Translations under genes and position numbers: made by a program | Origin: a virus | Strand: one strand, 5' to 3' | Virus record (IMG/VR): IMGVR_UViG_3300022214_000022 | Coordinates: 1 to 20,908 of that record | Length of the DNA: 20,908 nucleotides | Notes under the pieces: model-generated | Database searches by the model: none | Seen by the model: the letters and a program-made list of their open reading frames with translations, nothing else | Told to the model about the DNA's origin: nothing | Shown here: one piece after another, positions 5,747 to 20,908 of the stretch | How positions within the stretch are numbered: the first letter of the stretch is position 1 | Layout of the letters: every line of letters begins with the position of its first letter

Positions 5747-6402
5747 CAGGGGCCACTCATGTCAGGGAGGACGGTGAGGGTGGTACGGAGCAACGTGACG
5801 GTTGCTGTTGCCGCTGTCACGCCTTCCAGCTCGAGCTGGTACTGGCCGTCCGTGAGCGCCGTGGTTTGCGCGCTCGTGAGGTCGACGCTGATAGCGTCCT
5901 CACCGACAACGGACGCTGATACCTCAAGTGTTCCCTGCACACGCCAGGTGACGGTGAGGCCGGTGAGGTCGGGGGCGTCCATCACGCTCAACTGGTAGAT
6001 GAGCGCGCGCCCGTCGGCGCTGAGGTAGCCGTCGCCCTGGTAGATGGTGGTGGTGCCGTCCGCTCCGACGGGGACGGGGACGGGGAGGCTGGCGGGTGCG
6101 TGCTCGACAACCTCGAGGTCGAACTCGGGGGTGTCCTGCGTGAGCCCGGATGTGGTGACCGTCCACCAGCCCTTGTAGGTGCCGACGGTGTCGACGTCGC
6201 CTGCGGCCCATGCGTACTGCACGATGCCGGCTGCTGGTGTGACGACGGTGGCGGACGCGCCCGTGATCTTCAGTGCTGCGCTCAGGCTGTTGCGCATGCT
6301 GAGCGTGACGGTGCTGCCGGTGAGGTCGACGGCCGTTCCTCCCGAGGTGATGGTGTCGCTGAGAACCGGCAGTCTGTTGTCTTTCCAGATGGTGAGGGTC
6401 AT
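5746..6402 (-). CDS. Tail baseplate upper-protein-like, two Ig-like domains
   Basis: This 218-residue beta-rich protein starts TLTIWKDNRLPVLSDTITS and continues VDLTGSTVTLSMRN, a layout like the N-terminal domain of lactococcal BppU-type baseplate proteins. It appears to contain two related beta-sandwich halves, about residues 8-100 and 115-214. Both run from an opening strand to a closing strand pair of the type GTYKGWWTVTTSG or GQYQLELEGV. It has no transmembrane segment or catalytic motif. The ATG at 6402 overlaps the stop of the large adhesin gene (ATGA) and is preceded by GGAGAA. That coupling suggests the two act together at the tail tip, the small protein perhaps as a hub that holds the adhesin. 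This partner role is inferred. Confidence 0.7.
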   Translation of the reverse strand: MTLTIWKDNRLPVLSDTITSGGTAVDLTGSTVTLSMRNSLSAALKITGASATVVTPAAGIVQYAWAAGDVDTVGTYKGWWTVTTSGLTQDTPEFDLEVVEHAPASLPVPVPVGADGTTTIYQGDGYLSADGRALIYQLSVMDAPDLTGLTVTWRVQGTLEVSASVVGEDAISVDLTSAQTTALTDGQYQLELEGVTAATATVTLLRTTLTVLPDMSGP

Positions 6403-9400
6403 AGGTTCTCCGGGGTGGGAGTGTCATAGCCGGTCAGTGTGGTCGCGGTCGCGTACGCTGGGAGGATGGTGGTAGGGTCGAGCACGCCGGGCTTGGTTTC
6501 GCCTGGGTCGTTTCCTGTTCCGTACAGGCCGAGCCCGTAGTCACCGAGCCCGTACGAGCCTGCGGCGATTGTGCCGCCGAACTGGGTGGAGATGGCGAGC
6601 GCGGTGAGCGACGGGGATGTGATGTCGAACACGCCTACTGGCATTGGCTGCGCGGGGGCGGTGCCGTTGGTGGTGGCGGAGAACACGATGTCGGTGCTGG
6701 CCTGGGCGGGTTCCGCGTACACGCCGATCTCCTGGATCGTGACGTGCTGCGGGTCAGGGCTGTTGACGCCGACGCCGATCGAGTAGCCGAGAAGGTCAAC
6801 GAAGTCGTGGGGCTCCCCGCCCCATGACGCCTGCCTGACGTTCAGGCGGACGCCCTCGCACTCGACGGACGCCGGGAACGGCACGTCGAACACCCACTGC
6901 TGATCCCAATACGACTCGTACATGCCGTCCTGACCGTGCCAGTACGTCACATCAGCCGGGTCGGTTTTCGTGACGGTCGCCTGGGTTGTCCAGACGGCCC
7001 CGTCGTAGGTTTCCACGTCGAAGTCGATCAGGGTTGCGTGCGCCTGCCATGCCATCCCGGCCCACACGATCACCCGGCCGACGGTGACCGGACTGGCCCA
7101 CAGCAGCTCGGCTGTTTCGGGTGTCGGCCCCGTGGAGGAGGCGACATCGGCCGCGTCGGAAGCTCCCGTGTACTTCAGTAGGAAGCCGTCGTTGGCGATG
7201 GCGGGTTTGCTCACCCCACCCAGCGTTTTCGTGGTCGCCGTAGACGCGATCGAAGCTGTGGGGTTCGGCCCCCAGTCGTGGCACTGGTACACGGTCGCGG
7301 TCACCCCCACGGGCAGCCGCACGTAGGTGGGGAGCTCGGTTGGTGTGACGGTGACACGGCCTGACACTTGCGCCACCGACGTTTCGTTCCCGAACCCGTC
7401 CACCACCGTCAACGGGCTGCTGGTGCCGGTGATGGTGAGGGTGACGGACGCGTTGTCGATGTAACTGGTTGGCATCAGCACAACGCAGCCGGACGTGTCG
7501 GCGGCGGTGTAGACGCTGCCGAGGTAGATGCTGTCGCCGCGTTCGCCCATGTCGAGGGCGTGCGAGTACGGCTTCCCCCATGTTTCCTCCGCCAGCACCC
7601 GTGAGGCAACACACTGCGGGAACAAAGACGTGTCTCCCTGTTCCAGCCACGACATGTACGTCCAGAACCCGTGCGACACGTCATACCACGGGCTGTTGTA
7701 CTCGCGTGGCACCCCGTACTGCTCGAGCAAAAGCTGGTACATCAACTGCGTGCGGACGGCCCTGCGGTACTGCGTTGACCCGTAGTAGTTGGTGAGAGCG
7801 TGCGTTGATTCCGTCTGCCAGATTTGCTTGCTGCCGTAGCCGAGGCCGTCGAGATAGTCGAGGAGGGCTTGCCAGATGGTGCGGCCGGTATTGAGGTTGC
7901 CGTTCGGGGCGCTGTTGTAGGCGTGGAACGCGAACTCGTCGCAGTAGTCGCCGCCCCCGGCGTCGAAGAACGGGGCCAGGAAGTCCGTATAGATGTTGAC
8001 GCTCGACGGCCCCATCGCCACCGCGTCCGGGTGTCCCTCATGGACGTACGCTTGGAACAGCCGCATCGTGTGGGCGAGGAAGGCGTCCGGTTTGCCTTCG
8101 TTCTGCGGCCCCTCGTAGTGGGTGACGCCGAGCGGGTACAGGGTGGAGACGACAGTGACGAGGTTGTCTCGTCTCCCACGTCCTATCGCCGTCGGGGTGG
8201 CCTGCGTTCCAGGTGTAAGTCCGGTGCCCTTGAAGAACCTGATGTAGTTGCTGACCCCGTCGATAGCGGTTTGTGCCGCCGTGTTGCTCGCGAGATTGTC
8301 GTACGTCTCCACAAGCGTGCTTGCGTCGGGGTAGTACACCTCCACTTTGCTGCCGGACACGGAGCCCGGTGTGAGGGTGAGGAACACTTGCGCCCCGTCT
8401 ACCGTCTCGTCCTTGACGGTCGTTCTGGCCCAGTTGTCAATGGCGGGGTTGCAGCCGGAGCAGGGAAGGCTGTTGCCGTCGATAGAACCGTTCGGGAACG
8501 TACACCACAATGCGCGAGGGGTGCGTTCGCCGTCCGCGTACGGTGCGCCTGGGTTCGAGTAGTAGGTGGCTGAGATGGCGGCGTCCGACTGTGCCCTGGC
8601 GAGAGTGTCGGTGCTGGCCGAAAGGTTGTCGATGTTGCCGATGATGAGACGGGACGTGCCCATCCCCATCACGCCCTTCATCACGTAATCAGGGCCTTCG
8701 CTGTTCCCGCCGCCGCTCGTTGTCGCGGCAGGCATCGCCACGAAATGCGGATCGTCTCTGATGACGCAGAAGTTGGTGGCCCCGTACGAGTAGTTGAACA
8801 GGCTGTCGAAGTTCGGGCCGGTCAGATACACCCTGTACCAGCCTGGTTTCCACCCGCCCACCGGGGCGTCAGGGGTGAAATGAACCCCGGTGAACGACCC
8901 GGACGAGACGACGTCTCCGTAGTAGTCGCGGATCAGGTAGTCACGTTCGGTCGGCCACACCACCTCCGGGTTTGTCGTCCCAACCCATGTGGTGTGGTTC
9001 GCAACCACGTCGTCTATCCACAAGCCGGCGTATACATGGTGGTAACTGAGTTGCATGTCAACGGCGGTGTCTACACCGGAGCCGCTCACGACCTCGTCCG
9101 GTGTCGAGGAGGTGGGGTCGAGATACAGGCGTGCCTCCAACGACCCGACGGTGGCGGAATGAACAATGTGGTATTCGATCCTGACCCACTGATCCCAGGG
9201 AACCGTCACCGTTCCCGCCGGGATAGAACCGGCTTTCGGCCACCATGAGATCTTCCGGCTCGCGTTCAGCCACAGAATGTTCCCTGATCCAGAGTGAAGG
9301 GTTTGCATGAGACGGCTGCCGCGACTCCCGGCCTCGTTGTTCACGTAGGTGCCGGTTTCCGTGTAGAAGTAGAAGCGACCGTAATGCTCTGTTCTGGGTG

Positions 9401-9737
9401 TCGTCGGGAACTGCCAGTAGAAGGCGTCGCTGGCCCCGTTCGTGTACCCGGACAGCCCGCCCTCGTACACATGGGTGTCGTCGTGGATCATCGTGTTCGG
9501 TGTCGTGGGCGGCGTCCAGTCGGCTGCGTACAGGCTGGTCGTCAGCGCCGCCCCGGCGACACCACGGTCGAACCCGTACGTGCGTACAGCACTGTCAGGG
9601 AGATCCTGCGGGAAGAACAACTCGACGGTGTCACCGGCGTAGAAGACGCCGTTTCGGTTCTGCCCCAGGTTGTTCCACTGCGCCCCCTTCACCCACGCAG
9701 GGGTGGGGCTTAGACCGCCGCTGTAGGGGAACGGCAC
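6399..9737 (-). CDS. Large tail adhesin with glycoside-hydrolase-like barrel and carbohydrate-binding domains
   Basis: This 1112-residue protein starts at a GTG overlapping the upstream TAG by one base. I read these domains. About residues 95-245 form a jelly-roll/concanavalin-like segment (EHYGRFYFYTETG, later QWVRIEYHIVHS). About 250-335 is a small beta domain. About 335-720 is a TIM-barrel-like glycoside hydrolase region with the clan GH-A pattern: Asn546-Glu547 (GPQNEG) as putative acid/base and Glu643 (IWQTES) as putative nucleophile, with FAFHAYN between them. About 720-820 is a beta sandwich that often follows such barrels. About 825-1005 resembles an F5/8 type C (galactose-binding) domain. 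A Gly/Tyr linker (GSYGLGDYGLGLYG) lies near the C-terminus. It probably binds and cleaves a host surface glycan. The exact GH family and substrate cannot be named. Confidence 0.8.
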   Translation of the reverse strand: MPFPYSGGLSPTPAWVKGAQWNNLGQNRNGVFYAGDTVELFFPQDLPDSAVRTYGFDRGVAGAALTTSLYAADWTPPTTPNTMIHDDTHVYEGGLSGYTNGASDAFYWQFPTTPRTEHYGRFYFYTETGTYVNNEAGSRGSRLMQTLHSGSGNILWLNASRKISWWPKAGSIPAGTVTVPWDQWVRIEYHIVHSATVGSLEARLYLDPTSSTPDEVVSGSGVDTAVDMQLSYHHVYAGLWIDDVVANHTTWVGTTNPEVVWPTERDYLIRDYYGDVVSSGSFTGVHFTPDAPVGGWKPGWYRVYLTGPNFDSLFNYSYGATNFCVIRDDPHFVAMPAATTSGGGNSEGPDYVMKGVMGMGTSRLIIGNIDNLSASTDTLARAQSDAAISATYYSNPGAPYADGERTPRALWCTFPNGSIDGNSLPCSGCNPAIDNWARTTVKDETVDGAQVFLTLTPGSVSGSKVEVYYPDASTLVETYDNLASNTAAQTAIDGVSNYIRFFKGTGLTPGTQATPTAIGRGRRDNLVTVVSTLYPLGVTHYEGPQNEGKPDAFLAHTMRLFQAYVHEGHPDAVAMGPSSVNIYTDFLAPFFDAGGGDYCDEFAFHAYNSAPNGNLNTGRTIWQALLDYLDGLGYGSKQIWQTESTHALTNYYGSTQYRRAVRTQLMYQLLLEQYGVPREYNSPWYDVSHGFWTYMSWLEQGDTSLFPQCVASRVLAEETWGKPYSHALDMGERGDSIYLGSVYTAADTSGCVVLMPTSYIDNASVTLTITGTSSPLTVVDGFGNETSVAQVSGRVTVTPTELPTYVRLPVGVTATVYQCHDWGPNPTASIASTATTKTLGGVSKPAIANDGFLLKYTGASDAADVASSTGPTPETAELLWASPVTVGRVIVWAGMAWQAHATLIDFDVETYDGAVWTTQATVTKTDPADVTYWHGQDGMYESYWDQQWVFDVPFPASVECEGVRLNVRQASWGGEPHDFVDLLGYSIGVGVNSPDPQHVTIQEIGVYAEPAQASTDIVFSATTNGTAPAQPMPVGVFDITSPSLTALAISTQFGGTIAAGSYGLGDYGLGLYGTGNDPGETKPGVLDPTTILPAYATATTLTGYDTPTPENL

Positions 9738-10543: not shown

Positions 10544-10767
10544 CAGCTATCTCCTTCGGATCGCCAGTTCAGGTTGATCGCCTGCGTCGTCGAGTGGGCC
10601 GGGAGGTCAGCGATCCGCACCGTATGCTCACCCGCCGTGACTTTCACCAGGGTCGTCCGTGCTTTCGCCCCGGTCTTCGCGACAGGCTGGTCGTCAACGA
10701 CGATCTGGTAGCCGGTCGCCCCGGGCACACCATCCCACCTGATCTTCACGGCGAGCGGAACGATCAC
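10543..10767 (-). CDS. Small fibronectin-III-like protein
   Basis: This 74-residue protein consists of one beta-sandwich domain. The pattern LAVKIRWDGVPGATGYQIVV, then KTTLVKV-like strands and GEHTVRIADL, matches a fibronectin type III repeat (Trp in strand B, the GATGYQI segment in strand C). I chose the GTG at 10767, which overlaps the epimerase stop (GTGA), rather than a longer upstream frame that is Arg/Pro-rich and antisense-like. Such stand-alone domains in phages usually decorate the virion surface and help weak adhesion to carbohydrates. Coupling to the epimerase on one side and the fibre on the other suggests it may be a glycosylated decoration; this is inference. Confidence 0.7.
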   Translation of the reverse strand: MIVPLAVKIRWDGVPGATGYQIVVDDQPVAKTGAKARTTLVKVTAGEHTVRIADLPAHSTTQAINLNWRSEGDS

Positions 10768-11651
10768 ACCAGCACCTCCGCCGCCTCGGAAACGATCCAG
10801 TCGTGAACGAGCAGCATCCCCTGCTCCAGCTCCACCTCGGGCTGCCAGCCGAGCGACCGCAGGCGGGCGGTGCTGAGGCGCTTCACGACCGTCTGGTTCT
10901 GGGGGGCGTCCACCATCTCGATCAGGTCGACCGGGGCGCCGGTGAGGTCGCACGCGAGCTCGGCGACGTGGAGCATGCTGACGGGGTTGTCGTCACGGCC
11001 GACGTTGAACACGCCGCCCTCAGCCTGCCCGACGATCATGCGGATGCCGCGCACGGTGTCACCGACGTAGCACCATGACCGTTCGGCGTCCCGGTGTACC
11101 GGGATAGGGGCCAACGTCAGCGCCTGCCAGAGCATGTTGATGATCGCTGCGCGGCCCCTGCCCCAGGGGAGTCCCGGCCCGTACGGCATGCTGAGCCGGA
11201 GGATGGTGAGCCCGTCGGGGGCGTACAGGCGTGCTGCTTCTTCGCCCCACCGTTTCGAGAGCCCGTACAGGTTGTGGATGCGTCCGCGGTTGTCGCTGAC
11301 GTGTTCCTCGCACAGGCTGTCGCCCTGGTCGCCGTACACCTCCGAGGTTGAGGCGTAGACGAGGCGGGCGTTGTGGCGTCCGCATGCCTGGGCGACGTGC
11401 GCGGTCATGGTGGCGTTGTCGGTGATGGTGGCGCCGAGGTCGTCTTCGCCGAACTGCCGGCCGACCTTGGCCGCGAGGTGGATCACCACGTCAGCCCGCT
11501 CGTACCCGATGATGTGTTCGGCAATACCTGGCTCGCGTAGGTCGCCGTGCTGGCGGTCGATTGCGATGACACGGTCGTAGTGGGGCTCGAGCTCGCGGAC
11601 GAGGTGCTGTCCGATGAACCCGTGGGCGCCGGTGACGAGCACCCTCGTCAT
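10764..11651 (-). CDS. NAD-dependent sugar epimerase/dehydratase (extended SDR family)
   Basis: This 295-residue enzyme should act on a nucleotide sugar such as UDP- or dTDP-hexose. The Rossmann motif GAHGFIG is at residues 8-14 (GxxGxxG). The segment VVIHLAAKVG near residues 55-64 is typical of the family. The catalytic set is visible: Ser/Thr in YASTSEVYG (residues 99-107) and Tyr129-x3-Lys133 in NLYGLSK. LRLSMPYGPG and RSWCYVGDTVRGI are conserved substrate-side elements. Length is slightly below the usual 310-340. I chose the ATG at 11651 over the longer frame because it overlaps the upstream TGA (ATGA) and has GAGGGA before it. It probably prepares the donor sugar for the neighbouring glycosyltransferases. 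Exact reaction (4-epimerisation or 4,6-dehydration) is not clear. Confidence 0.92.
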   Translation of the reverse strand: MTRVLVTGAHGFIGQHLVRELEPHYDRVIAIDRQHGDLREPGIAEHIIGYERADVVIHLAAKVGRQFGEDDLGATITDNATMTAHVAQACGRHNARLVYASTSEVYGDQGDSLCEEHVSDNRGRIHNLYGLSKRWGEEAARLYAPDGLTILRLSMPYGPGLPWGRGRAAIINMLWQALTLAPIPVHRDAERSWCYVGDTVRGIRMIVGQAEGGVFNVGRDDNPVSMLHVAELACDLTGAPVDLIEMVDAPQNQTVVKRLSTARLRSLGWQPEVELEQGMLLVHDWIVSEAAEVLV

Positions 11652-12271
11652 GTTCCCTCGACCGCGTTGATGGCCGTCCAGAACACCTGGCTGTCTCCCT
11701 GAACCCGCTGCCCCTGGCTCATGCCTGCGCCACGGCCGGCAGCCTCGTTGTGGTGGGTGATGACGCTGCCGGTGCGGAGCACGGTTTCGATGCCGAGCTG
11801 GCGTCCCCGGTAGCTGACCCACACGTCGGTGAAGTAGTGGATCGGCAGCGTGCCGATCTTGTCCCACTGCTTCCGCGTCAGGGTCGGCACCGGTGTGAAC
11901 GGAACCTCCGCCCAGTCGTCACGGACGGTTGTGAGCAGGCAGTTGGACGCGGCCAGGTCACCGCCGGCGGACTGCACGGTGCCGTTCGGGTTGAGCACGA
12001 CCGGGGCGGGCAGCAGGTTCTTCTCGCATGCTTCCACGAGCGGCTGCCACCAGCCTTCATGCACCTCGAGGTCGTCGGCGGTGAAGTGGAGGATGTCCCC
12101 TGTTGCTTTCTTCGCGAGCTTCTGCCATGCGATGCCGCAGCAGGGGGCGTCGAGCGCGGTGAGGATCTCGACTTTCGCGCCCTTGCTGCGGGTACGGAGG
12201 GCGGTGAGGCAGCGGTCGAGCGATTCCTCACGGCCGGTGACGGTCGGCACGATCGCGGTGATCGTTGTCAT
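11648..12271 (-). CDS. Glycosyltransferase, GT-A fold (family 2-like)
   Basis: This 207-residue protein starts at ATG 12271, which overlaps the upstream TGA and is preceded by a strong AGGAGGTG site. The longer open frame upstream is antisense-like and rejected. The N-terminus, TTITAIVPTVTGREESLDRC, is the nucleotide-binding strand and helix of GT-A enzymes. An Asp-Asp pair in ILHFTADDLEV (residues 66-67) sits where the metal-binding DXD motif is expected. The C-terminal part has HYFTDVWVSYRGRQLG and a VITHHNE element, similar to the acceptor side of family 2 enzymes. It is short for the family (usually 240-350), so it is a compact version. It probably transfers a sugar to a virion protein or glycan intermediate. 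Confidence 0.82.
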   Translation of the reverse strand: MTTITAIVPTVTGREESLDRCLTALRTRSKGAKVEILTALDAPCCGIAWQKLAKKATGDILHFTADDLEVHEGWWQPLVEACEKNLLPAPVVLNPNGTVQSAGGDLAASNCLLTTVRDDWAEVPFTPVPTLTRKQWDKIGTLPIHYFTDVWVSYRGRQLGIETVLRTGSVITHHNEAAGRGAGMSQGQRVQGDSQVFWTAINAVEGT

Positions 12272-13041
12272 ACAGGCACCTCCTGGCATGCCTTGTCGAA
12301 CTCCAGCCAGAAGTCGGTGGCTGCGGTTTCCAGCGCCGCGGGTTGGTTCTCGATCCACCAGAGGGCGCCGACGTCCTCGCCGACGGCGATGCGGCACCCG
12401 GCAGCCCACGCCTCCACCGTCGCACGGCCGAACGGCTCGTAGTCGCCGCGGCCCATCGCGTGCGTGTACCACTCGTACCCGGCGAGCAGGGCGGGCATCT
12501 CGTCGTAGCTGACGGGGCCGTTGTCGGTGCCGTGCCCGTACGCGTCGAACGGCAGCTCCTGCCGTTCCGCCCACAGCCTTGCCGCTCGCAACCCTGCTTC
12601 CCGTTGCGGGCTGAGCGTGTGCGCCACCCAGCACGCCGCCTTCTCCCGCTCCCCCGTGTCAGCGTCACGGAAGCGTTGCAGGTCAACCCATGACGGCAGC
12701 ATCACAGACCACTGCGTCGGCTCCGGCCGGAACCTCCGCCTGTGCAGGGGGCTGCGGAACACGGTCAGGTTGGCGTGCTCGAGCAGCCATTTGCGCACGT
12801 CGAGGTTGCCTGCGCCCCACGCGTCGTTCACGATCTTCACGATCGGCCGGCCAGGGGTGAGCGCCTCCATGTCAGCGGGCGTGTAGAACACGCAGTTCGC
12901 GACCACGTACGCGTCCGCGTCCGCGACCTCACCGGGCGCCATCATCGTGATCTCGTAGGGGCTGTGGTCGCGGACGGCGACGGAGTCGAGTTCGGCACCG
13001 CCGACGTAGTTGATCGTGTCCTCGAGCCAGCCGATGTTCAT
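12268..13041 (-). CDS. Short glycosyltransferase, GT-B fold (family 4-like)
   Basis: This 257-residue protein is much shorter than a normal GT-B enzyme (350-420). It begins NIGWLEDTINYVGGAELDSV, with the GGAE element that family 4 enzymes have near the N-terminus. The C-terminal half retains the EX7E pattern: Glu202 and Glu210 in YEPFGRATVEAWAAGC. A helix with HTLSPQREAGLRAARLW precedes it. The N-terminal acceptor domain seems reduced, so it may be a minimal enzyme or may need a partner such as the 397-residue protein encoded just upstream. Start and stop overlap both neighbours by 4 bases (ATGA each). Confidence 0.8.
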   Translation of the reverse strand: MNIGWLEDTINYVGGAELDSVAVRDHSPYEITMMAPGEVADADAYVVANCVFYTPADMEALTPGRPIVKIVNDAWGAGNLDVRKWLLEHANLTVFRSPLHRRRFRPEPTQWSVMLPSWVDLQRFRDADTGEREKAACWVAHTLSPQREAGLRAARLWAERQELPFDAYGHGTDNGPVSYDEMPALLAGYEWYTHAMGRGDYEPFGRATVEAWAAGCRIAVGEDVGALWWIENQPAALETAATDFWLEFDKACQEVPV

Positions 13042-14231
13042 GCTGGCACCACCTCACGGATCACCGGCAGCTCAATCGTTTTCGCGAGCTCGTCCAGGGC
13101 TGGCAGCCAGTGCTCGTCGAACACCCGGTCGGCGTCGTACTGCAACGCGAACTCGCGGCCCTTGTCCCGCAGCCCCTCGTCGTCGCGGAGCACGTACGCG
13201 GACTCGAGCGCCTCGTAAATCTCAACGACGCTGGGGCTGAGCCAGAACGCCCCGTACTGCGGCACGTACCAGGCGTCACCGCTGACGCACCAGCCTGCGG
13301 CGGTCAGTTCCGGCATGCTCGTCCAGTTCGACGTCAGCACCGGGCATCCGCACGCCTGCGCCTCCACGATCGGGATGCCGAACCCCTCACCGTACGATGG
13401 GTTCGCGAGCACGTCGAAGCCGGTGTACAGCTCCGCGAGCTTCGACGCGGGCGTCCCCAACTGCAACGCCAACTGGTTGCTGAACGCGAACGCCTCGTCG
13501 GGGATGCCGCAAATCTCCTTGAGCGCCATCAGGTTGATGCCGCTGTCCATCCCGAACAGGTCGCTGTGGATGTACAGGACGGCGTCCGGGTGTTCCCTGC
13601 GGAAGCGGGCGAACGCCTGGAACACCTGCGGGAAGCTTTTGCGTGGCGGGTTCGTGCCGGCGTTGTAGGCGACCATGCCGACCACGAACGCGTCCTCCGG
13701 CACTTTCATAGCACGCCGGATCGCCGCCCGGTCGGGCTGCCTGGTGAACGTGCCGGTGTCGATGCCGTGCGGCACGTACAGCGGGTCGAGACCTGCGTCT
13801 GCGAGCGCGTCACGCCCGAACTTCGACATCGCGATCGGCCGTGACCCGGTCAGGTCGAAGAACTGGTGGACGCGAGGCGACAGCGGTTTGCAGTCGACGG
13901 GCACCCATGACGCGAGGTTCAGTGGCGCGAGCTTGCTGTGGTGCTCGTTCAGTGTCCACACGTCCTGCAACGTGATGACCAGCACGTCCTCGCGCGCCTC
14001 GCCTTGCGCGAAGTGGCCGGCGTAGTGGGGGAGCATGATGCCGCCGTACCCGGTGTTGTCTCCGGGGTAGACGGGCATGCCCTCCCACTCCATCATCGAG
14101 CCGCGCAACCCGAAGTAGGCGGCGATCGCGACGTCATGGCCGGCCGCGGTCAGGCGGCGGGTGGCCTGCGCGGTCTGGGTGCCGTACCCGGTCTGGCAGA
14201 ACGGTGCCGCGGAGTGCCAGAGGATCTTCAC
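13038..14231 (-). CDS. Glycosyltransferase, GT-B fold (family 4-like)
   Basis: This 397-residue protein has the full length of a GT-B enzyme. The N-terminal Rossmann domain opens KILWHSAAPFCQTGYGTQTA, which carries the Gly-rich loop. The interdomain segment LYVPHGIDTGTF (residues 151-162) is typical. The C-terminal nucleotide-sugar domain has VVGMVAYNAG, FDVLANPSYGEGFG and the EX7E motif with Glu282 and Glu290 (EGFGIPIVE), followed by AQACGCPVLTS. It is predicted to be a retaining transferase using a nucleotide-activated sugar. GTG at 14231 overlaps the preceding TGA (GTGA) with GGGAGAAG upstream. Encoded among virion genes, it more likely glycosylates capsid or tail proteins than host lipids, but this is inferred. 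Confidence 0.92.
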   Translation of the reverse strand: MKILWHSAAPFCQTGYGTQTAQATRRLTAAGHDVAIAAYFGLRGSMMEWEGMPVYPGDNTGYGGIMLPHYAGHFAQGEAREDVLVITLQDVWTLNEHHSKLAPLNLASWVPVDCKPLSPRVHQFFDLTGSRPIAMSKFGRDALADAGLDPLYVPHGIDTGTFTRQPDRAAIRRAMKVPEDAFVVGMVAYNAGTNPPRKSFPQVFQAFARFRREHPDAVLYIHSDLFGMDSGINLMALKEICGIPDEAFAFSNQLALQLGTPASKLAELYTGFDVLANPSYGEGFGIPIVEAQACGCPVLTSNWTSMPELTAAGWCVSGDAWYVPQYGAFWLSPSVVEIYEALESAYVLRDDEGLRDKGREFALQYDADRVFDEHWLPALDELAKTIELPVIREVVPA

Positions 14232-14519: not shown

Positions 14520-16817
14520 CTACAGCGTCTTGATGGTGCGGAACGCCTGCCACGCCACGACTTCGGCGCTGTTCCGCCAGTACGCGTACAGCCCGCGCTG
14601 ACCGGACGGCCGGTTGTTGGCCGTCGCGAACATGTGCGGGATCAGCTCGACCGAGAGGCCGACCTTGTCCACGATGACGTAGCCGGCGGAGAAGTCACCG
14701 TAGGTGACTGCCGAGCTGCCGGTCGTGACCGTCGACGGTGCCGAGCTGTTCTCGTAGGCAGGCCGTCCGAGCAGCCTGTCCGGCGTGCCGTCACCGAGGA
14801 ACGCCCACAGGGAGGCGCCACCGGAGGTGTCGAACTGCCGGATGCGGTCGAACTGCGTGCCTTCGGCGACCCATGATGCGTTGGGCCGGTACCGCGGCGG
14901 CAGAGCGTTCTTGCCGCTGTAGAGGTCGGCGACCGCCAGGGTGGCGGTGGCCGCTGTCGTCACGACCGCGGTTGCGCCGACGAGGTAGCCCTGCGGCTCG
15001 TTGCTGCCGCTGCCGACGCCGGTCGTGAACTTGTCCGCCTCCAGGCTGTCCTTCGCGTCCTGGATGAGACGGGCCATCTCCGACTGGAATCCCGCCCAGT
15101 CCTCACCGATCTCGATTGAGAACGGCACGAACGCCTGTGCCTTCTCTGCCGTGATCGAGGGCTGCGCGATCGTCGGTGCGTCGTCACCGGCTTCGGTTGT
15201 CTCTGCCGCGTACGACGCGGTGATGCCTGCCGACGTGATGCCTTCCCACGTGTTGCCTGCGACGGTGACGACCCGGCTGATGCCCCTGACCGGGTTGATC
15301 TGTCCGTCCGAGGTGAGCATCACGGTCGGGTCGAGGGTGACCGGGACGGCGAACCCGCCGGCCGTGGTCGTAAGCGACGCCGCCCGCTTGAGGGCGTTGT
15401 CTTCCTCCGCGGTGAGCGGACGCTGCGCCAGGTACTTGCCGAACGCCCTGGCGTACAGCGGTGACGCTGTCTCCAGGATGTGCCGGGAGAGCCGTGCGTC
15501 CTCTCCGTCGAGCTCGCGAAGCAGGCTGGTCAGGTGCGCCTGCTGCTTCTCGTGCTCTGCCCGCTCGTGCGGGAACTGCATGATCTCGATTGCGCGTCGT
15601 GCCCCCTGCTGGAGCTTGGCGGGCACGTCCTCCCACCTGTTGAGCGTCCGGTACTCGGACACGTCGTACAGGTTGGCGGGGATGCCCTTCTGGGTGCGGA
15701 CGTTGCTGCCTCCGTCCCAGGCGGGCTTGCCGGGCGGCTCGGGTGTCTCCACCTGGCCTGCGCGGTTGAGATCCTCGAGCACCTTGCGGCGCTCCTCGAC
15801 TGCGCTGATGCGTGCCTCGATCTCGGCGCGCTCGTCGAGCAGCCCGTCCCACTCTGCCTGGGCTGCTTCGGTGAAACGCTCGGTGCCGGCTTCGGAGCCG
15901 ATGCCCTTGAGCCGTTCCGCGATCTCGGCAAGGCGCGCACGCAGCTCTTCGACTGTCTGCATGGTTGTGCCTTCCTTGGTTGTGGTGTCGGGTGCGTCGG
16001 GTTCGCGGCGCGACTCGGCGGGGTGAGCGTCAGGCTCGGCGCCGTCCGGGTCGGGTGCATCCTCCGAACGTAGGGTAGTGACTGTGGTGGATGTGGTTGT
16101 CTGGGGGACGACGATGCCGGTTGCGCCTGATGTCGTCCACGTCTGGGGGTCGGTGGTGACGCTGAGCGTGCCCGGCGACCGGGTGTTCTGCGTAATCAGC
16201 TCGGCCAGCCGCTCCGGCTGCTCCGCGAACGCCGCAACAAGGAACTCGTCGGTCATCGACCGCAGCCCCGCCGTCGCCTCCGGGTACGCCGGGAACGTGA
16301 CCGGCCCGAACTCAGCGAGGCTCACCTCCTTGATCGTGCGCTCCGGCAGCCCCTTCGGGTTCTCCTCCGACGGCTCCGGCTTCTCCCTGATCTCCTCCCG
16401 CATCACCTTGAACCGGAACGACGCGCCGTACACGCCGGCCTCGAGCCCGGGGATCAGGTCACGGTTGTAGGAGGTGTCGAACAGCGGCACCTCGTAGGCG
16501 ACACCGACGTCACCGTCTTCGGCGAGATCACGGATCGGGCCGAGCACCTTGTCGCCGATCTGCGGATCCTGCCCGTGGTTGAACAGCACCTTGATCTTGT
16601 CGCGGTTCTCCCGGATCGTCTTACGGAACGACCCTGGGGCGAGCCGCTCGAGGAAGTTGCCCTCGAACATGCTGTTGATCTCTGTGAAACGGTTGAAGAC
16701 GGCGAAGTGCCCGCCCATCGTCGGCATGCTGTCGTCGCCCGCGTCTCGCTTGAGGGTGATGCCGCGCATCGCCCGGACGAGGTTCTCGCGTGGCAGCGTG
16801 TGGTGTGGTTTCGCCAT
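14520..16817 (-). CDS. Fused prohead protease and HK97-fold major capsid protein
   Basis: This single 765-codon frame holds two functions usually encoded separately. Residues 1-200 are an HK97-type prohead protease: GHFAVFNRFTEI, His81 in LFNHGQDP and Ser133 in YGASFRFKVM are the likely catalytic His and Ser. Residues 205-285 form a Thr/Pro/Asp-rich linker. Residues 286-350 are a coiled coil (ELRARLAEIAERLKGIG, AEIEARISAVEERRKVLEDL) equivalent to the HK97 delta scaffold domain. Residues 360-765 are the capsid shell part, ending VEVVAWQAF-like (SAEVVAWQAFRTIKT). The ATG at 16817 has AGGAGA before it. A good internal start exists at Met286. After assembly the protease should cut itself and the delta domain off. 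Fusions of this type are known in some actinophages. Confidence 0.93.
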   Translation of the reverse strand: MAKPHHTLPRENLVRAMRGITLKRDAGDDSMPTMGGHFAVFNRFTEINSMFEGNFLERLAPGSFRKTIRENRDKIKVLFNHGQDPQIGDKVLGPIRDLAEDGDVGVAYEVPLFDTSYNRDLIPGLEAGVYGASFRFKVMREEIREKPEPSEENPKGLPERTIKEVSLAEFGPVTFPAYPEATAGLRSMTDEFLVAAFAEQPERLAELITQNTRSPGTLSVTTDPQTWTTSGATGIVVPQTTTSTTVTTLRSEDAPDPDGAEPDAHPAESRREPDAPDTTTKEGTTMQTVEELRARLAEIAERLKGIGSEAGTERFTEAAQAEWDGLLDERAEIEARISAVEERRKVLEDLNRAGQVETPEPPGKPAWDGGSNVRTQKGIPANLYDVSEYRTLNRWEDVPAKLQQGARRAIEIMQFPHERAEHEKQQAHLTSLLRELDGEDARLSRHILETASPLYARAFGKYLAQRPLTAEEDNALKRAASLTTTAGGFAVPVTLDPTVMLTSDGQINPVRGISRVVTVAGNTWEGITSAGITASYAAETTEAGDDAPTIAQPSITAEKAQAFVPFSIEIGEDWAGFQSEMARLIQDAKDSLEADKFTTGVGSGSNEPQGYLVGATAVVTTAATATLAVADLYSGKNALPPRYRPNASWVAEGTQFDRIRQFDTSGGASLWAFLGDGTPDRLLGRPAYENSSAPSTVTTGSSAVTYGDFSAGYVIVDKVGLSVELIPHMFATANNRPSGQRGLYAYWRNSAEVVAWQAFRTIKTL
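15960..15977 (-). promoter_or_regulatory. Internal ribosome binding site and ATG before the capsid part
   Basis: On the minus strand, AAGGAAGG (15977-15970) lies 7 bases before an in-frame ATG (15962-15960), which is codon 286 of the fused protease-capsid gene. Translation from here would give a 480-residue delta-domain plus capsid protein without protease. The site sits exactly at the junction between the low-complexity linker and the delta coiled coil. This would solve the need for few proteases and many capsid subunits. Confidence 0.55.
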
Positions 16818-16826
16818 TGGCTTCTC

Positions 16827-17954
16827 CTAGAGGGTGAGCAGCATGAGCGCTGCCTCGTCGTCTTCTTTTCGCCGCCGTGCGTCGATGAGTGCTCGTTGGT
16901 CGACTGTGGCGGCGATCTCGGCCAGTAGGTCGTCGAGGGTCGGGAGCGGGACGTGCCCGTCGGTGGTGATGTCGAGGTTGACGTTGAGCTCGGCCCGCCC
17001 GTACACGCTGCGGCGGACGGACGGGGTGAGGCTGTAGACGTAGCCGCCGCCGGGCGCGGGGCCGGTGGCGAGCGACTCGGGTGCGGTGGTGGCCTCGAAG
17101 TTGAGGGTGAGGCTGCTGTCACCGAACTGTGTTGCCGCGATCGTGCCGTTGGTTGTGATGGTGACGGTTTCCGGCAGGCTGGTGGTCGCGTACGCGGTGA
17201 CCCGCCCGGTCGTGTCGGCTGCGACAGCGGCTGTGAGGCTGCTGGAGCCGTGATGGGTTACCGCACCTGCGGTGGTGACCGAGAACGTGATCGGCACGTC
17301 GGCGGCGGCGAACGCCTCGACGAGAGCGGCTGCTGTCGCGTCGAAGGTGAGCGTGAGCGACGTTTCGCCGAAGACGGCCGCGACGACGTCACCGTCGGTG
17401 GTGGCGGTGAACGTGTAGGTGCTGACGCTGTCGGACTTCGCGCCAACGAGCCCGCTGGTGGTGGCCCCGAACTCCCACTGGCTGTCAGCGGACGCGTGCT
17501 TGGTTGCCGCACCAGCGGTCGTGGTCGTGAGGGTGATGTCGAACGCCGTGAGCCCTTGCGCGTCAACCTCGCCGGTGGTGGTGATGGCAAGGCTGATCGG
17601 CACGTCGGCGGCGCCGAGCGCCTCCGTAGCCCCGGTGGTGGTGACGGTGAGGTGGATCGGGGTGCCGTACGCGCCGCCGCCGTACTCGCCTGACCCGTAG
17701 TTGCCGTCTACCTCACCGAACGTGGTGCGCACGCCGGCGGTCGTTGCGGCCCACGAGTAGGTGCTCGAGGACGATCCTGTTGTCGCGCGCGCGCCCGATG
17801 TCGTCGCGGTGAACGTCAGATCCATCGACGCCGACGAGCTCGTGGTGCGGACGCCGTTGGTCGTGATCGTGTCGGTGAACGTCGCTGACGTCGCGCCGAA
17901 GTGCTCGGGTGTGCCGGCGGCGGCGGCCTCAATCGGCTGGTACTGCCAGTTCAT
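16827..17954 (-). CDS. Virion protein of tandem short Thr/Gly beta repeats
   Basis: This 375-residue protein is dominated by about 13 imperfect repeats of roughly 20-26 residues. Each has two strands of the type LTFTATTSG / ARATTGSSS or ITFSVTTAG / AVTHHGSSS, with a central TT(A/S/D/N)G turn. A Gly/Tyr break (GNYGSGEYGGGAYG) interrupts them near residues 85-98. Residues 310-375 change character (VRRSVYGRAELNVNLDITTD) and end in a charged helix (DARRRKEDDEAALMLL). Similar TTxG repeats occur in unannotated actinophage structural proteins, so it is probably a beta-solenoid or string-of-beads virion component. The ATG at 17954 directly follows the upstream TAG. The stop lies 9 bases before the protease-capsid start. 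Function unknown. Confidence 0.75.
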   Translation of the reverse strand: MNWQYQPIEAAAAGTPEHFGATSATFTDTITTNGVRTTSSSASMDLTFTATTSGARATTGSSSSTYSWAATTAGVRTTFGEVDGNYGSGEYGGGAYGTPIHLTVTTTGATEALGAADVPISLAITTTGEVDAQGLTAFDITLTTTTAGAATKHASADSQWEFGATTSGLVGAKSDSVSTYTFTATTDGDVVAAVFGETSLTLTFDATAAALVEAFAAADVPITFSVTTAGAVTHHGSSSLTAAVAADTTGRVTAYATTSLPETVTITTNGTIAATQFGDSSLTLNFEATTAPESLATGPAPGGGYVYSLTPSVRRSVYGRAELNVNLDITTDGHVPLPTLDDLLAEIAATVDQRALIDARRRKEDDEAALMLLTL

Positions 17955-18305
17955 CTATGCGACCTGCCGGATGCTCCAGTTGACCGTGATCGTTCCCGAT
18001 GGTGCCTTGAGCGTGAAGTCCCACCCGTGCATCAGCACAAGCGACGGTGTGACGTAGATCGGCCTGGACTGCACGTCAGTGAGTGACCACAGGTCGACGA
18101 CGCGCTGCGTGTCCCCCGACCGGCACTTCTCGTACACGCGGATCTCGAGCTCGTCGCCGGCGACCATGTCGGACACGTCGATGAACGCCTGGTAGACGCC
18201 GTCGGTGGTTTGCGCGTCCCCGGTGTCGTAGCTGGTGTCGGTGGCCATCGAGTGCTCCGTCGTGCTGATCGCCTCTGTGCCGTTGATGAGTTCGCTGATC
18301 GCCAC
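17955..18305 (-). CDS. Small beta-rich virion-associated protein, function unknown
   Basis: This 116-residue protein begins AISELINGTEAISTTEHSMA and runs through beta strands with DGVYQAFIDVSDMVAGDELE and IRVYEKCRSGDTQRVVDLWS, to a C-terminal strand (TITVNWSIRQVA). I do not recognise a named family; short proteins of this shape are frequent among actinophage fibre-related genes. I used GTG 18305 because AAGGAAG lies just upstream, and the preceding gene ends 7 bases before. The gene ends exactly one base before the next ATG. It likely forms part of the same decorative or fibre complex as its neighbours. Confidence 0.75.
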   Translation of the reverse strand: MAISELINGTEAISTTEHSMATDTSYDTGDAQTTDGVYQAFIDVSDMVAGDELEIRVYEKCRSGDTQRVVDLWSLTDVQSRPIYVTPSLVLMHGWDFTLKAPSGTITVNWSIRQVA

Positions 18306-18312
18306 GGCTTCC

Positions 18313-19158
18313 TTATCCGACTGCGTAGATGGCCCAGCCGCGGTTCTCCGCGGCGCTCGTCCTCGTCGCGAGCGCGAGCCTGGTGGCCGCCGGGATCGAG
18401 AACCTCATCCCCTGCAAGATCAGGTTCGCCCACATGCACGAAATGTTCTCCGTCGACGTCGACTCGCCGAACGGCAGGTCGGACGCGATCCACTCCGGGG
18501 TCGCCCCGGTGCCAACACGGACGATGCCGCGCTTGTTCACCCCCGTCGTGTCCGTCGCGAGGTCAACGCCCAACTGCATCGCCCGGATCGGGTAGGTGCA
18601 AGACGACGTGATCTCCGTGGTGGTGCCGTACGCGCCCGTCGACTGCGGCACACTCACCCCCGACGACGTCGCCGTGTCGGGGCCGTACGCGGTGACCCGC
18701 TGCCCGACCCAGCCGACGTTCCTGACGTGCTGATGCAGCCACACAGCGACCCTGACCGTGTCCGACGCGATCAGCGCCTGACAGCGGGCTGACAGGCGGC
18801 TGGCGGACGGAATAAACAAAGGGAAGTGGTACATCGCCGCCGTGTTCACCGCCCCCGTCAACGTGCCGACGTTCCCGGCGAGAAGGTCGGGGATCAGCAC
18901 CGTTTCCGACCCGGACGCGCCCAAACCGATGTCGACGAGCATCCTCGAGTTGGTGGATGCCGCGGTGCCGACCTCGGCCAGCATCACCGTGATCCCGTAC
19001 GACGCGCGGGCCGTCGAAGCGATCAACTCACCCGATGAGAACGCCCCCTTCGTATGCGACGATCCCGCCGCGGTGATGAGTGTCCCGAGCTCGGCGGCTG
19101 TGGTGCCGCCCACGTTCGACTCGATCACCTGCGCGCCCGTTGGCGCTGCTAGCAGCAT
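18313..19158 (-). CDS. Fibre-like virion protein with internally duplicated domain
   Basis: This 281-residue protein appears to contain two related halves. The first runs from about residue 70 to 145 (MLVDIGLGASGSETVLIPDL then FPLFIPSASRLSARCQALIA then VRVAVWLHQ). The second runs from about residue 205 to 281 (GIVRVGTGATPEWIASDLPF then MRFSIPAATRLALATRTSAA then GWAIYAVG). Each half has a strand-rich layout with an (F/L)xIP(S/A)(A/G)(S/T)RL motif, like jelly-roll domains of phage fibres. There is no signal peptide or membrane segment. The ATG at 19158 lacks a strong ribosome binding site and sits 8 bases after the upstream stop, so coupling is likely. A specific family name is not justified. 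Confidence 0.75.
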   Translation of the reverse strand: MLLAAPTGAQVIESNVGGTTAAELGTLITAAGSSHTKGAFSSGELIASTARASYGITVMLAEVGTAASTNSRMLVDIGLGASGSETVLIPDLLAGNVGTLTGAVNTAAMYHFPLFIPSASRLSARCQALIASDTVRVAVWLHQHVRNVGWVGQRVTAYGPDTATSSGVSVPQSTGAYGTTTEITSSCTYPIRAMQLGVDLATDTTGVNKRGIVRVGTGATPEWIASDLPFGESTSTENISCMWANLILQGMRFSIPAATRLALATRTSAAENRGWAIYAVG

Positions 19159-19166
19159 GTCGTCCG

Positions 19167-19559
19167 CTACGCCGCGATCGGCGTGATCGCCAGGTCAAGG
19201 TCGCCGGTCGCGATCGTGAAGTTGTCACCGGCCGTCACCGCCCGCGGTGTCGTCAGGTCGTCCGACCCCAGGAACGTGCCCGCGGTCGACGCGTCCCAGA
19301 ACGACACGTGCGAGTACGTCTCCGACGTCGACACGTTCGTCCAGGTGATGTCCGCGTCGGTGGTCATCGCCCCAGCCGCCGCCGCACTGAACGACGCCTG
19401 CTGCCTGGTCGTCTCCACCGCCGGGTTCCCGGCACCAGCCGCCCCCGGGTCACCGAGATGCAGCTTCACCCAGAACGCGGTCGGGGCTGTGATGTTCGCG
19501 GCGTTGCCGAGCGCGTCAAGGACGCTGTTCGCGAACGCCGATGCGAGTCCAACAGTCAT
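19167..19559 (-). CDS. Tail-fibre-family virion protein
   Basis: This 130-residue protein has a layout often annotated as phage tail fibre protein in actinophages: LASAFANSVLDALGNAAN at the N-terminus, a strand with WVKLHLGDPGAAGAGNPAVE, the TTRQQASFSAAAAGAM segment, TWTNVSTSETYSHVSFWDAS and the closing TAGDNFTIATGDLDLAI. It is beta-rich with no catalytic motif. The ATG at 19559 directly follows the portal stop, and the run of Glu codons at the portal C-terminus supplies the ribosome binding site (AGGAGGAG). Its location next to the portal is unusual for this family, which normally lies with tail genes. Confidence 0.8.
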   Translation of the reverse strand: MTVGLASAFANSVLDALGNAANITAPTAFWVKLHLGDPGAAGAGNPAVETTRQQASFSAAAAGAMTTDADITWTNVSTSETYSHVSFWDASTAGTFLGSDDLTTPRAVTAGDNFTIATGDLDLAITPIAA

Positions 19560-20908
19560 CTACTCCTCCTCGTATTTGACGGCGTTGCCGTCCTTGTCGC
19601 GCTGAACACGGATCTTCCGCTGCTGCTGCTGCTCCTCGTACCCGACCACGTTGCCGTCCTCGTCACGGATCACCTCGAGCGCCCGTTTCGGCCTGTCGGC
19701 GAACTCCGCTGTGAACGACACGTCGGGGGCGTCGACATGCACGTCGGGCGGCTCGACCGTCACCTGCACAGCGCCCTCCGCGATCTCCGTCGGCTCAACC
19801 CGCACCTGCACCGCACCCTCCTCGATCCGGGTCGGCTCAACCGTCACGTGCGACTGGATCGCGCCCTCGCTGACGGTCAGCTCGGGCGGCTGCACATCCA
19901 CGCGAACAGCGCCCTCCGCGATCGTCACGTCAGGGGTGTCAACCCGGATCGCCCCGTCCGCGAACTCCACCCTGGCCGGCTCCACGTTCACGTCCGCCCG
20001 GATCGCGCCCTCCGCGAACTCCACCCTGGCGGGCTCCACCGTCGTCGGTTCCACCCGCACATCCGACCGGATCGCGCCGTCCGCGATCTCAACCCTCGTC
20101 TCCGGCACATCCACGTAAATGTTGTGGGTTGGTGACGTCTCCGGCCGCGACCTCAGCATCAGCTCGGTCAGCGCGAAATCCAGCTGCCGGTTCTCCGACG
20201 CCTGCCCGTTCCCCGACGGTGCCGCAGGCTCGAGCGCCGGCTGCGCCGACGGCTGGTCTGGATCCTGCAACTGCACGCTCAGCTTGCCGGTGTGCTGCAA
20301 CCGGGCGAGATCCCCCGCCACCACCGCGCTCACCACACTGTCGGGCAGGAACCCGCCGTCGACAAGCTGGCGGATCGTGCTCGCCTCCATCGCCATGATC
20401 TCCGCCGCGTCCTTCAAGTCCTCCTTCAGGAAGCTGATGTCGCGGTCGTCGTACCACAGCTCCGCCCCGCCGGGCACCCGGATGATGTTCGCGAGGCTGC
20501 CGGCCATGTTCCGCCACAACGGCCGCAACGTCCCGTCCGCGAACCGGCGGCGCGCCATCCCGTAGTTGCCTGCGTTCAGGCTCGACCCGGCCAGCCCCTC
20601 CGACAGTCCCACGATCACCGGCGGCACACCCGCCGCCGCCGCGATCCTCGTCTCACCCGCACCCTGCGTCGCCTTGAAGTCAAGCTGCTGCAAGTCCGCG
20701 CCCACCACCGTCGCGTCAGCGCCAGCACCCAGGAACAACGTCCTGTACGCGTTCGACGAGCCCTCATGCTGCTCACGGAACTTCTCGATGAACGGCGTCA
20801 GTTTCTCCACCGAGTCCACGTCCAGTTTCACCAGCATGTTCGGTGTCGCACCGTTCTCGAAGAACCGGAGCTTATGGTCGGTCGCCGCCTTGTCCGACAT
20901 GATCTCCC
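19560..20908 (-). CDS. Portal protein (HK97 family), C-terminal part, cut by the right window edge
   Basis: The dodecameric portal is the DNA entry gate of the capsid. The frame is open to base 20908. The ATG at 20900 is probably internal, because the sequence there (DKAATDHKLRFFENGATPNM) matches the middle of HK97-type portals, and roughly 200 residues should be missing upstream. Visible hallmarks are EKFREQHEGSSNAYRTLFLG, LDFKATQGAGETRIAAAAGV, PPVIVGLSEG and SSLNAGNYGMARRRF, then the DISFLKEDLKDAAEIMAMEA helix. After about residue 245 from the 20900 ATG a long tail of short repeats follows, then a charged end (QQQQRKIRVQRDKDGN). The final Glu codons double as the ribosome binding site of the next gene. 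Confidence 0.93.
   Translation of the reverse strand, partial: EIMSDKAATDHKLRFFENGATPNMLVKLDVDSVEKLTPFIEKFREQHEGSSNAYRTLFLGAGADATVVGADLQQLDFKATQGAGETRIAAAAGVPPVIVGLSEGLAGSSLNAGNYGMARRRFADGTLRPLWRNMAGSLANIIRVPGGAELWYDDRDISFLKEDLKDAAEIMAMEASTIRQLVDGGFLPDSVVSAVVAGDLARLQHTGKLSVQLQDPDQPSAQPALEPAAPSGNGQASENRQLDFALTELMLRSRPETSPTHNIYVDVPETRVEIADGAIRSDVRVEPTTVEPARVEFAEGAIRADVNVEPARVEFADGAIRVDTPDVTIAEGAVRVDVQPPELTVSEGAIQSHVTVEPTRIEEGAVQVRVEPTEIAEGAVQVTVEPPDVHVDAPDVSFTAEFADRPKRALEVIRDEDGNVVGYEEQQQQRKIRVQRDKDGNAVKYEEE
19715..20115 (-). repeat. Seven-fold repeat in the portal C-terminal tail
   Basis: The portal tail contains seven copies of a short unit with the core (I/F/V)-A-(E/D)-G-A-(I/V)-(R/Q), such as IADGAIRSDV, FAEGAIRADV, IAEGAVRVDV and IAEGAVQVTV, joined by VEP or VEPPDV spacers. 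At DNA level two copies near 19957 and 20011 are nearly identical over about 29 bases with a 54-base (18-codon) period, indicating recent duplication. The pattern fits an extended, strand-rich or beta-solenoid tail. Confidence 0.75.

Follow-up and report, generated by a model that had tools for sequence, protein, structure and literature searches.

In phage HK97, the protease (gp4) and the capsid protein (gp5) are encoded by separate genes, and HK97-type proteases remove the delta region. The lambda gpC/Nu3 pair follows another principle, in which the long product carries the protease and a nested in-frame start gives the shared assembly part alone. The nested protease/scaffold genes of herpesviruses are a parallel case, although their short product is made from a separate internal mRNA.

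Fusions of protease and capsid are also known, as the preliminary description of this locus had said, and the available parts of the phage literature bear it out: PMC5513430, which mentions a scaffold-protease fusion in lambda, describes them in AM, AU and AN Arthrobacter phages and in RRH1, PMC13313380 gives a cluster CF fusion "within a single gene", and others are described in PMC9671004, PMC9753647, PMC12750149, PMC12760985 and PMC10652937. The available parts of these phage genome papers note the fusions but do not explain what fixes the protease dose. In the accessible, mostly open-access literature on protease-capsid fusions, no description of a conserved nested capsid start was found, which is weak evidence of novelty. 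The start discussed in section 26 of PMC9671378 (EpicDab, available in part), together with an N-terminal domain, lies before the protease and is not a capsid start; the accessible parts of PMC5155283 (Stx2 phage) and PMC10457771 (XM1) gave no precedent for a nested capsid start, and those of PMC3185693 and PMC4524720 held nothing on one.

The window analysed here, which is the whole stretch of 20,908 bases of an IMG/VR virus record, carries a protease-capsid fusion gene with the following features.

14520-16817, minus strand: fusion open reading frame protease-linker-delta-capsid, 765 aa, start ATG at 16817-16815
16822-16828, minus strand: Shine-Dalgarno-like AGGAGAA of the full-length (protease) start, from the sequence; duplex energy for that start -7.3
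16266-16748, minus strand: Peptidase_S78 prohead protease domain, residues 24-184 (Pfam PF04586, E 3.5e-21)
16575-16577, minus strand: His81 codon, invariant in 38 fused proteins
16419-16421, minus strand: Ser133 codon, invariant in 38 fused proteins
16311-16313, minus strand: Glu169 codon, invariant in 38 fused proteins
15963-16184, minus strand: disordered and variable linker, residues 212-285 (pLDDT <50; few conserved columns)
15970-15977, minus strand: internal Shine-Dalgarno AAGGAAGG, from the sequence; position conserved among relatives
15960-15962, minus strand: in-frame ATG of the internal start, Met286; folding energy of the mRNA there -4.3 kcal/mol (mean over the gene -13.7)
14520-15962, minus strand: nested open reading frame, predicted protease-free delta-capsid, 480 aa, a homologue of the capsid genes that stand alone in split relatives
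15759-15962, minus strand: helical delta-like region, residues 286-353, with helices 289-310 and 317-353 (AlphaFold2)
14529-15359, minus strand: HK97-type major capsid domain, residues 487-763 (PF05065, E 1.9e-36; TIGR01554, 3.6e-51; Foldseek)

Both domains share one open frame with neither a stop nor a shift between them. The protease domain scored 76.5 bits against Peptidase_S78 of Pfam (gathering score 21), and the capsid domain scored 126.4 bits against PF05065 Phage_capsid (Pfam cut-off 24.2) and 174.5 bits against TIGR01554 (cut-off 27.5), while the alignment to PHROG 10 (major head protein) spans fusion residues 23-746. The protease did not reach the equivalog cut-off of TIGR01543 in NCBIfam (47.3 bits against 59, E 2.2e-12), a score that supports the wider S78 family rather than the equivalog name. 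In the alignment of 38 of the 42 fused representatives, from which four partial ones were omitted, His81 and Ser133, which we take to be catalytic together with an acidic residue of the S78 prohead protease, were invariant, and Glu169 is a possible third catalytic residue.

The AlphaFold2 model, built on 35 fused proteins (mean pLDDT 78.6, pTM 0.52), placed pLDDT values below 50 at residues 212-285, followed by the two helices and then the capsid. The helical region thus begins right after Met286, putting the boundary between linker and helices where the preliminary description had placed the onset of a coiled coil; its reading of one frame with protease (His81, Ser133), linker, delta-type coiled coil and capsid agrees with Pfam and AlphaFold2, the label "delta-type" being a provisional one given by position and predicted helicity. 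Foldseek assigned the predicted model to the HK97 fold, with Mycofy1 head chains at the top (E 3e-24 to 7e-19) and HK97 Prohead II at E 5e-10, and the protease part with the linker gave no match at E 1 among PDB sequences.

The closest annotated counterparts come from four Rhodococcus phages, REQ1, Shagrat, Jflix2 and Madraxi, which, like the window, encode S78 protease, linker, coiled coil and HK97 capsid in one open reading frame that is homologous over nearly its full length. The window protein is 35-39% identical to these four fusions, each of which is annotated as one product without an internal start; for the REQ1 gene, the annotation reads just "putative capsid protein" or "head maturation protease". 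Between portal and protease-capsid gene, the window has four further open reading frames (16827-19559, minus strand), whereas the annotations of the four Rhodococcus relatives show no gene there; two of these reading frames gave no Pfam match. By eye, the C-terminal part of the portal (19560-20900, minus strand) contains repeated VEPxRVEFAxGAIRxDV-like units. Sugar genes (10764-14231, minus strand) lie between the capsid and tail genes, possibly as a virion glycosylation cassette, and near the tail genes a 1112-aa protein without a Pfam match (6399-9737, minus strand) looks enzyme-like from its sequence. The tRNA scan found none in the window. Individual reading frames of the two intervening regions are as follows.

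16827-17954, minus strand: 375-aa Thr/Ala-rich protein without a family
19167-19559, minus strand: match to PF23140, Podophage fiber gp80 (E 3.5e-27)
13038-14231, minus strand: GT1-type glycosyltransferase
11648-12634, minus strand: open reading frame with a weak family-2 glycosyltransferase match (E 2e-5)
10764-11867, minus strand: NAD epimerase

Codon 286 of the fusion is the ATG at 15962-15960, and AAGGAAGG ends exactly 7 nt upstream of it, confirming in the sequence the Shine-Dalgarno site that the preliminary description had set 7 bases ahead of an in-frame ATG. The window holds a single instance of the full pattern of Shine-Dalgarno, spacer and ATG, and none of 100 shuffles contains it; the pattern was picked after the site was seen. 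The internal Shine-Dalgarno and ATG of the window gene are shared by REQ1, Jflix2 and Madraxi. Duplex energies of the upstream and internal sites were -7.3 and -7.4 in the window, -8.9 and -8.1 in REQ1, -8.5 and -7.8 in Jflix2, -8.5 and -5.2 in Madraxi, and -9.0 and -4.2 in Shagrat. Thus in the five genes compared the energies tie or favour the upstream start, which counts against a dose model based on two starts, and a low protease ratio is not predicted by Shine-Dalgarno strength; duplex energy as a predictor of the product ratio was dropped as too weak. In three of the five compared cases (REQ1, Jflix2 and Madraxi), the upstream codon is GTG and the internal one ATG.

Relatives were collected by a tblastn search of a phage collection, which matched 241 records (60 listed), and by scans of viral contigs and genome contigs. 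Among the matches listed and read, the one-frame fusions were those of the four Rhodococcus phages, and many Mycobacterium and Gordonia records annotate the capsid as a gene of its own (among the matches listed, 60 of 241 and 40 of 290). The viral relatives are the best 80 of at least 561 matches and were drawn mainly with an alignment of fused genes, so that fused loci are over-represented in the sample. By BLASTP with both domains, 56 of 132 sequences were fused and 69 split, 3 had the protease alone, 2 had the capsid alone, and in 2 neither domain was detected. Removal of 10 duplicates and of 4 more sequences at 80% identity left 42 fused genes, the window included. A fusion produced by sequencing error was ruled out, since the same arrangement is present in the complete sequences of four Rhodococcus phages and in five bacterial genome records (Streptomyces atriruber, S. 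solincola, S. roseolus, S. hydrogenans and Longimycelium tulufanense).

Conservation was scored in a 25-codon zone about the point that lies 45 residues ahead of where the capsid alignment begins, a zone chosen after the sites had been inspected, and a site was a start codon with AAGG, AGGA, GGAG or GAGG 4-12 nt upstream. With ATG and GTG, 37 of 42 fused genes had an in-frame site in the zone, against 2 and 0 of 42 in the other two frames, and this frame control rules out chance purine richness. When TTG was also allowed, the counts became 39, 3 and 0 of 42, a conserved in-frame ribosome-binding site and start codon at the domain boundary of the kind expected of a nested gene. The preliminary description had named absence of the site from close relatives as evidence against it; instead, the site is kept in these 39 genes (37 with ATG or GTG only). 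Other 25-codon windows of the same 42 genes held a site in 192 of 1218 cases. In 200 synonymous-codon shuffles that kept the protein, the mean was 22.2 of 42 (sd 1.8, maximum 27) and none reached the observed count, although a null as high as 22.2 of 42 counts against the dual-start reading; it is high because 36 of 40 starts have R, K or E as residue -4. Five-base motifs gave 27 of 42 in the zone and 72 of 1218 in other windows, with a shuffle mean of 14.0 and a maximum of 18. A Shine-Dalgarno accompanied 25 of 44 ATG codons in the zone and 107 of 502 elsewhere (Fisher p 1.2e-6), and 13 of 20 GTG codons in the zone and 91 of 686 elsewhere (Fisher p 2.4e-7), P-values that treat related genes as independent. 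By these sequence counts, the internal site of the fused genes exceeds chance.

The misses under the widest rule were L016 (Shagrat), L041 and L051. L016 and L051 have only a weak GGGAAGG at very short spacing and failed the rule, and L041 has a GTG with AGGAG, but outside the zone. Among less usual sites, L002 has GTG with AAAGGA at -5.6 and L092 TTG with AGGA.

For tests of codon phase and folding, 40 starts were used, a set that includes L041, added by hand though it lies outside the zone, and from which L016 and L051 are absent. The Shine-Dalgarno occupies all three codon phases (13, 20 and 7 of 40) and encodes KE, RS, ER, RK and others, while 33 of the 40 starts have G at -10. The start residues are M in 24, V in 14 and L in 2, start codons being part of the selection rule. 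The mean folding energy of 45-nt windows was -7.8 kcal/mol at the 40 starts and -11.2 to -15.0 kcal/mol from 45 nt away outward to 300 nt, and 25 of the 40 starts fell within the 10% least folded windows of their own gene. By comparison, 201 other in-frame starts preceded by a Shine-Dalgarno in the same genes stood at -13.8 (Mann-Whitney p 6e-17, genes not being independent), and 1053 in-frame start codons without one at -13.4. At the window site, the fold was -4.3 against a gene mean of -13.7 kcal/mol, and 1.7% of the windows of that gene are as weak. Shine-Dalgarno, frame and weak structure together are the look of real starts.

The mycobacteriophages Sbash, Brujita and Mycofy1 have homologous protease and capsid in the same order but split. 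In Sbash and Brujita the two genes overlap and are read in different frames; Mycofy1, whose capsid structure is solved, has two genes by annotation. In 46 of 49 split relatives, a Shine-Dalgarno-preceded capsid start was located -30 to +12 codons from the expected place, with a median offset of -2 codons, the same as in the fused genes; this check was less strict, as it covered a wider range than for the fused genes and took whichever site lay closest to the protease stop. Overlaps of 1, 4, 13 or more bases with the end of the protease gene are frequent at these starts. In L022, the rule assigned a start 164 nt downstream, and a GTG overlapping the protease stop is likelier. Nine split loci of the tree (L042, L043, L045, L052, L056, L085, L095, L098 and L109) have protease and capsid in the same frame one stop codon apart, so that losing that one stop would be enough for fusion; L042, L085 and L098 among them gave no Shine-Dalgarno-preceded capsid start within the searched range.

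The capsid tree comprised 90 capsids, 49 of the 69 split sequences being used after filters for identity, length and duplicates, with L054 left out as short. The fused and split labels require 9 changes on it (9-10 on bootstrap trees, shuffled mean 29.8), and well supported branches force at least 5; across these swaps of layout, the capsid start stays put. A fused-only clade of 26 members (SH-aLRT 97 in the quick tree, and again set apart by a single branch in the careful one) kept Shine-Dalgarno and start codon in 23, and old fusions retain the site while the linker and the surrounding amino acids vary widely. The window itself groups with two split relatives (97/85) and then within a set of seven, three fused and four split (97/99). 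Because this clade mixes fused and split genes, the fusion of the window may be young, and for the window alone the site could be a relic of a separate capsid gene. Given the positions of the split capsid starts and the tree of layouts, the internal site is most simply explained as the ancestral capsid-gene start.

The fusion gene has, at the ancestral capsid start, a conserved translation start consisting of Shine-Dalgarno, in-frame start codon and low mRNA structure. Dual initiation, giving a full-length protease-delta-capsid and a nested protease-free delta-capsid, is in our judgement a highly probable explanation. It was the central proposal of the preliminary description and gains support from a site that is in frame, independent of the amino acids, low in structure and close to the capsid start of split relatives. 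We infer use of both starts, with the nested product as the major one, co-assembly and cleavage, in the following scheme. Initiation at 16817 would yield protease-linker-delta-capsid, and initiation at the internal Shine-Dalgarno and ATG (15977-15960) the 480-aa protease-free delta-capsid. Most shell subunits would be the nested product, and the full-length product would join the prohead through its delta/capsid part, so that a minority of protease domains is built in. The protease would then cut the delta regions, with the attached protease, off both forms. Virion termini will probably not distinguish the two products, because the mature-head chains of Mycofy1 show 249-293 modelled residues of a 543-residue sequence.

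Of the competing explanations, the least improbable is that the site is a ribosome-binding site left over by chance from the time when the capsid gene stood alone, and that only the full-length fusion now matters. The capsid start of split relatives near the same place and the grouping of the window with such relatives would fit this relic, but we consider it improbable, as the 26-member fused-only clade keeps Shine-Dalgarno and start in 23 while nearby amino acids vary widely, and the weak mRNA structure, which should have decayed in a relic, is retained as well. A fusion acting alone would, as the preliminary description had argued and as is right arithmetically, mean one protease per capsid subunit. 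Such a dose might be tolerated if the protease excised itself from each subunit, and the removal of delta by HK97-type proteases, the short mature-head chains of the split relative Mycofy1 and our own rough estimate that several hundred protease domains fit in a prohead all speak for that; nevertheless, fusion alone leaves the conserved Shine-Dalgarno, start codon, frame and low mRNA structure unexplained, and we hold it to be very improbable.

The remaining two explanations have, we think, hardly any chance of being correct. One is that a protein feature is conserved, such as a charged cleavage motif or a helix cap before the coiled coil, with the Shine-Dalgarno as a by-product of Lys-Glu or Arg-Ser codons. 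The charged residue at -4 in 36 of 40 and the high synonymous-shuffle null (22.2 of 42) agree with it, but a Shine-Dalgarno in three phases over differing amino acids, a start codon at the site, the trough of RNA structure and the failure of all 200 synonymous shuffles to reach the observed count do not. The other is a separate mRNA, begun inside the linker as in the nested protease/scaffold genes of herpesviruses, which would yield the short capsid in place of internal initiation on the long mRNA. A scan of 15900-17000 for sigma-70-like promoters found none of that type, and such an mRNA would still use the same internal start.

Dual initiation may extend beyond this family. BLASTP at E 1e-5 with parts from the window or from REQ1 detected neither ScienceWizSam (AU1) nor Anseraureola (EE), and by sequence the Arthrobacter AU-type and Microbacterium EE-type fusions apparently arose independently of the window family. 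Like the window, both have Shine-Dalgarno-preceded in-frame starts at the delta or capsid boundary. At a coverage of 80% or more, 234 phage records match the AU type and 140 the EE type, many of them near-identical. From 251 records matching the AU type, whose hosts include Arthrobacter, Gordonia, Streptomyces, Rhodococcus and Lactococcus, 14 genes were read (L024, L133-L144 and L147). All 14 have a Shine-Dalgarno-preceded ATG, GTG or TTG just before the capsid N-arm (TTG in two Lactococcus phages), and several also have such starts before a delta-like motif, so AU-type fusions may have a nested start at the N-arm in addition to one ahead of the delta region. The codons at the N-arm site spell a mostly constant Glu-Gly, and protein constraint may therefore explain that site; local folding was weak at some sites and ordinary in BenitoAntonio, FidgetOrca and HotFries (39-51% of the gene's windows). 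By eye, the C-terminal parts of the proteases of L024, L134, L143 and L147 seem to repeat a delta-like motif, roughly VxxxFxxxxEEQxxVVxxxxGEAL, before the nested start, as if the AU-type protease carried extra scaffold repeats.

Among EE-type genes, Anseraureola and phiExGM16 have AGAGGA and ATG at the coiled coil while their amino acids differ. EricDab, a third small-genome fusion, has only a weak candidate at the capsid boundary (codon 298, -3.3). Similar candidate nested starts in two apparently unrelated fusion families are suggestive, on weaker evidence than in the window family, and we lean slightly towards dual initiation as a general property of fusions that arose repeatedly, in unrelated families too, in which each listed "fusion protein" would be a nested pair that sets the protease dose.

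The conserved nested start would change the annotation of such genes from one product to two, make the question of protease dose directly testable, and suggest how one fused gene could supply few protease and many shell copies. Compared with HK97 gp4/gp5, the window has the same protein families in the same order, with a delta-like helical region before the capsid domain, and the family profile shows weak sequence similarity to gp5 (E about 1e-3). The lambda protease belongs to the S49 family according to the available part of the source, whereas that of the window is S78. In lambda C/Nu3, the nested product is the scaffold and the capsid is separate; in the window, the predicted nested product is the capsid with its own delta region. 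As the nested open reading frame holds the whole capsid domain, it is not a scaffold without a shell domain, and the locus would work like C/Nu3 without being such a pair. The locus pairs a type of fusion already described with the nested-start principle of other systems, the nested product here being the predicted shell protein, and the pairing connects HK97-type heads that lack a separate scaffold with the way in which lambda nests its scaffold within the protease gene.
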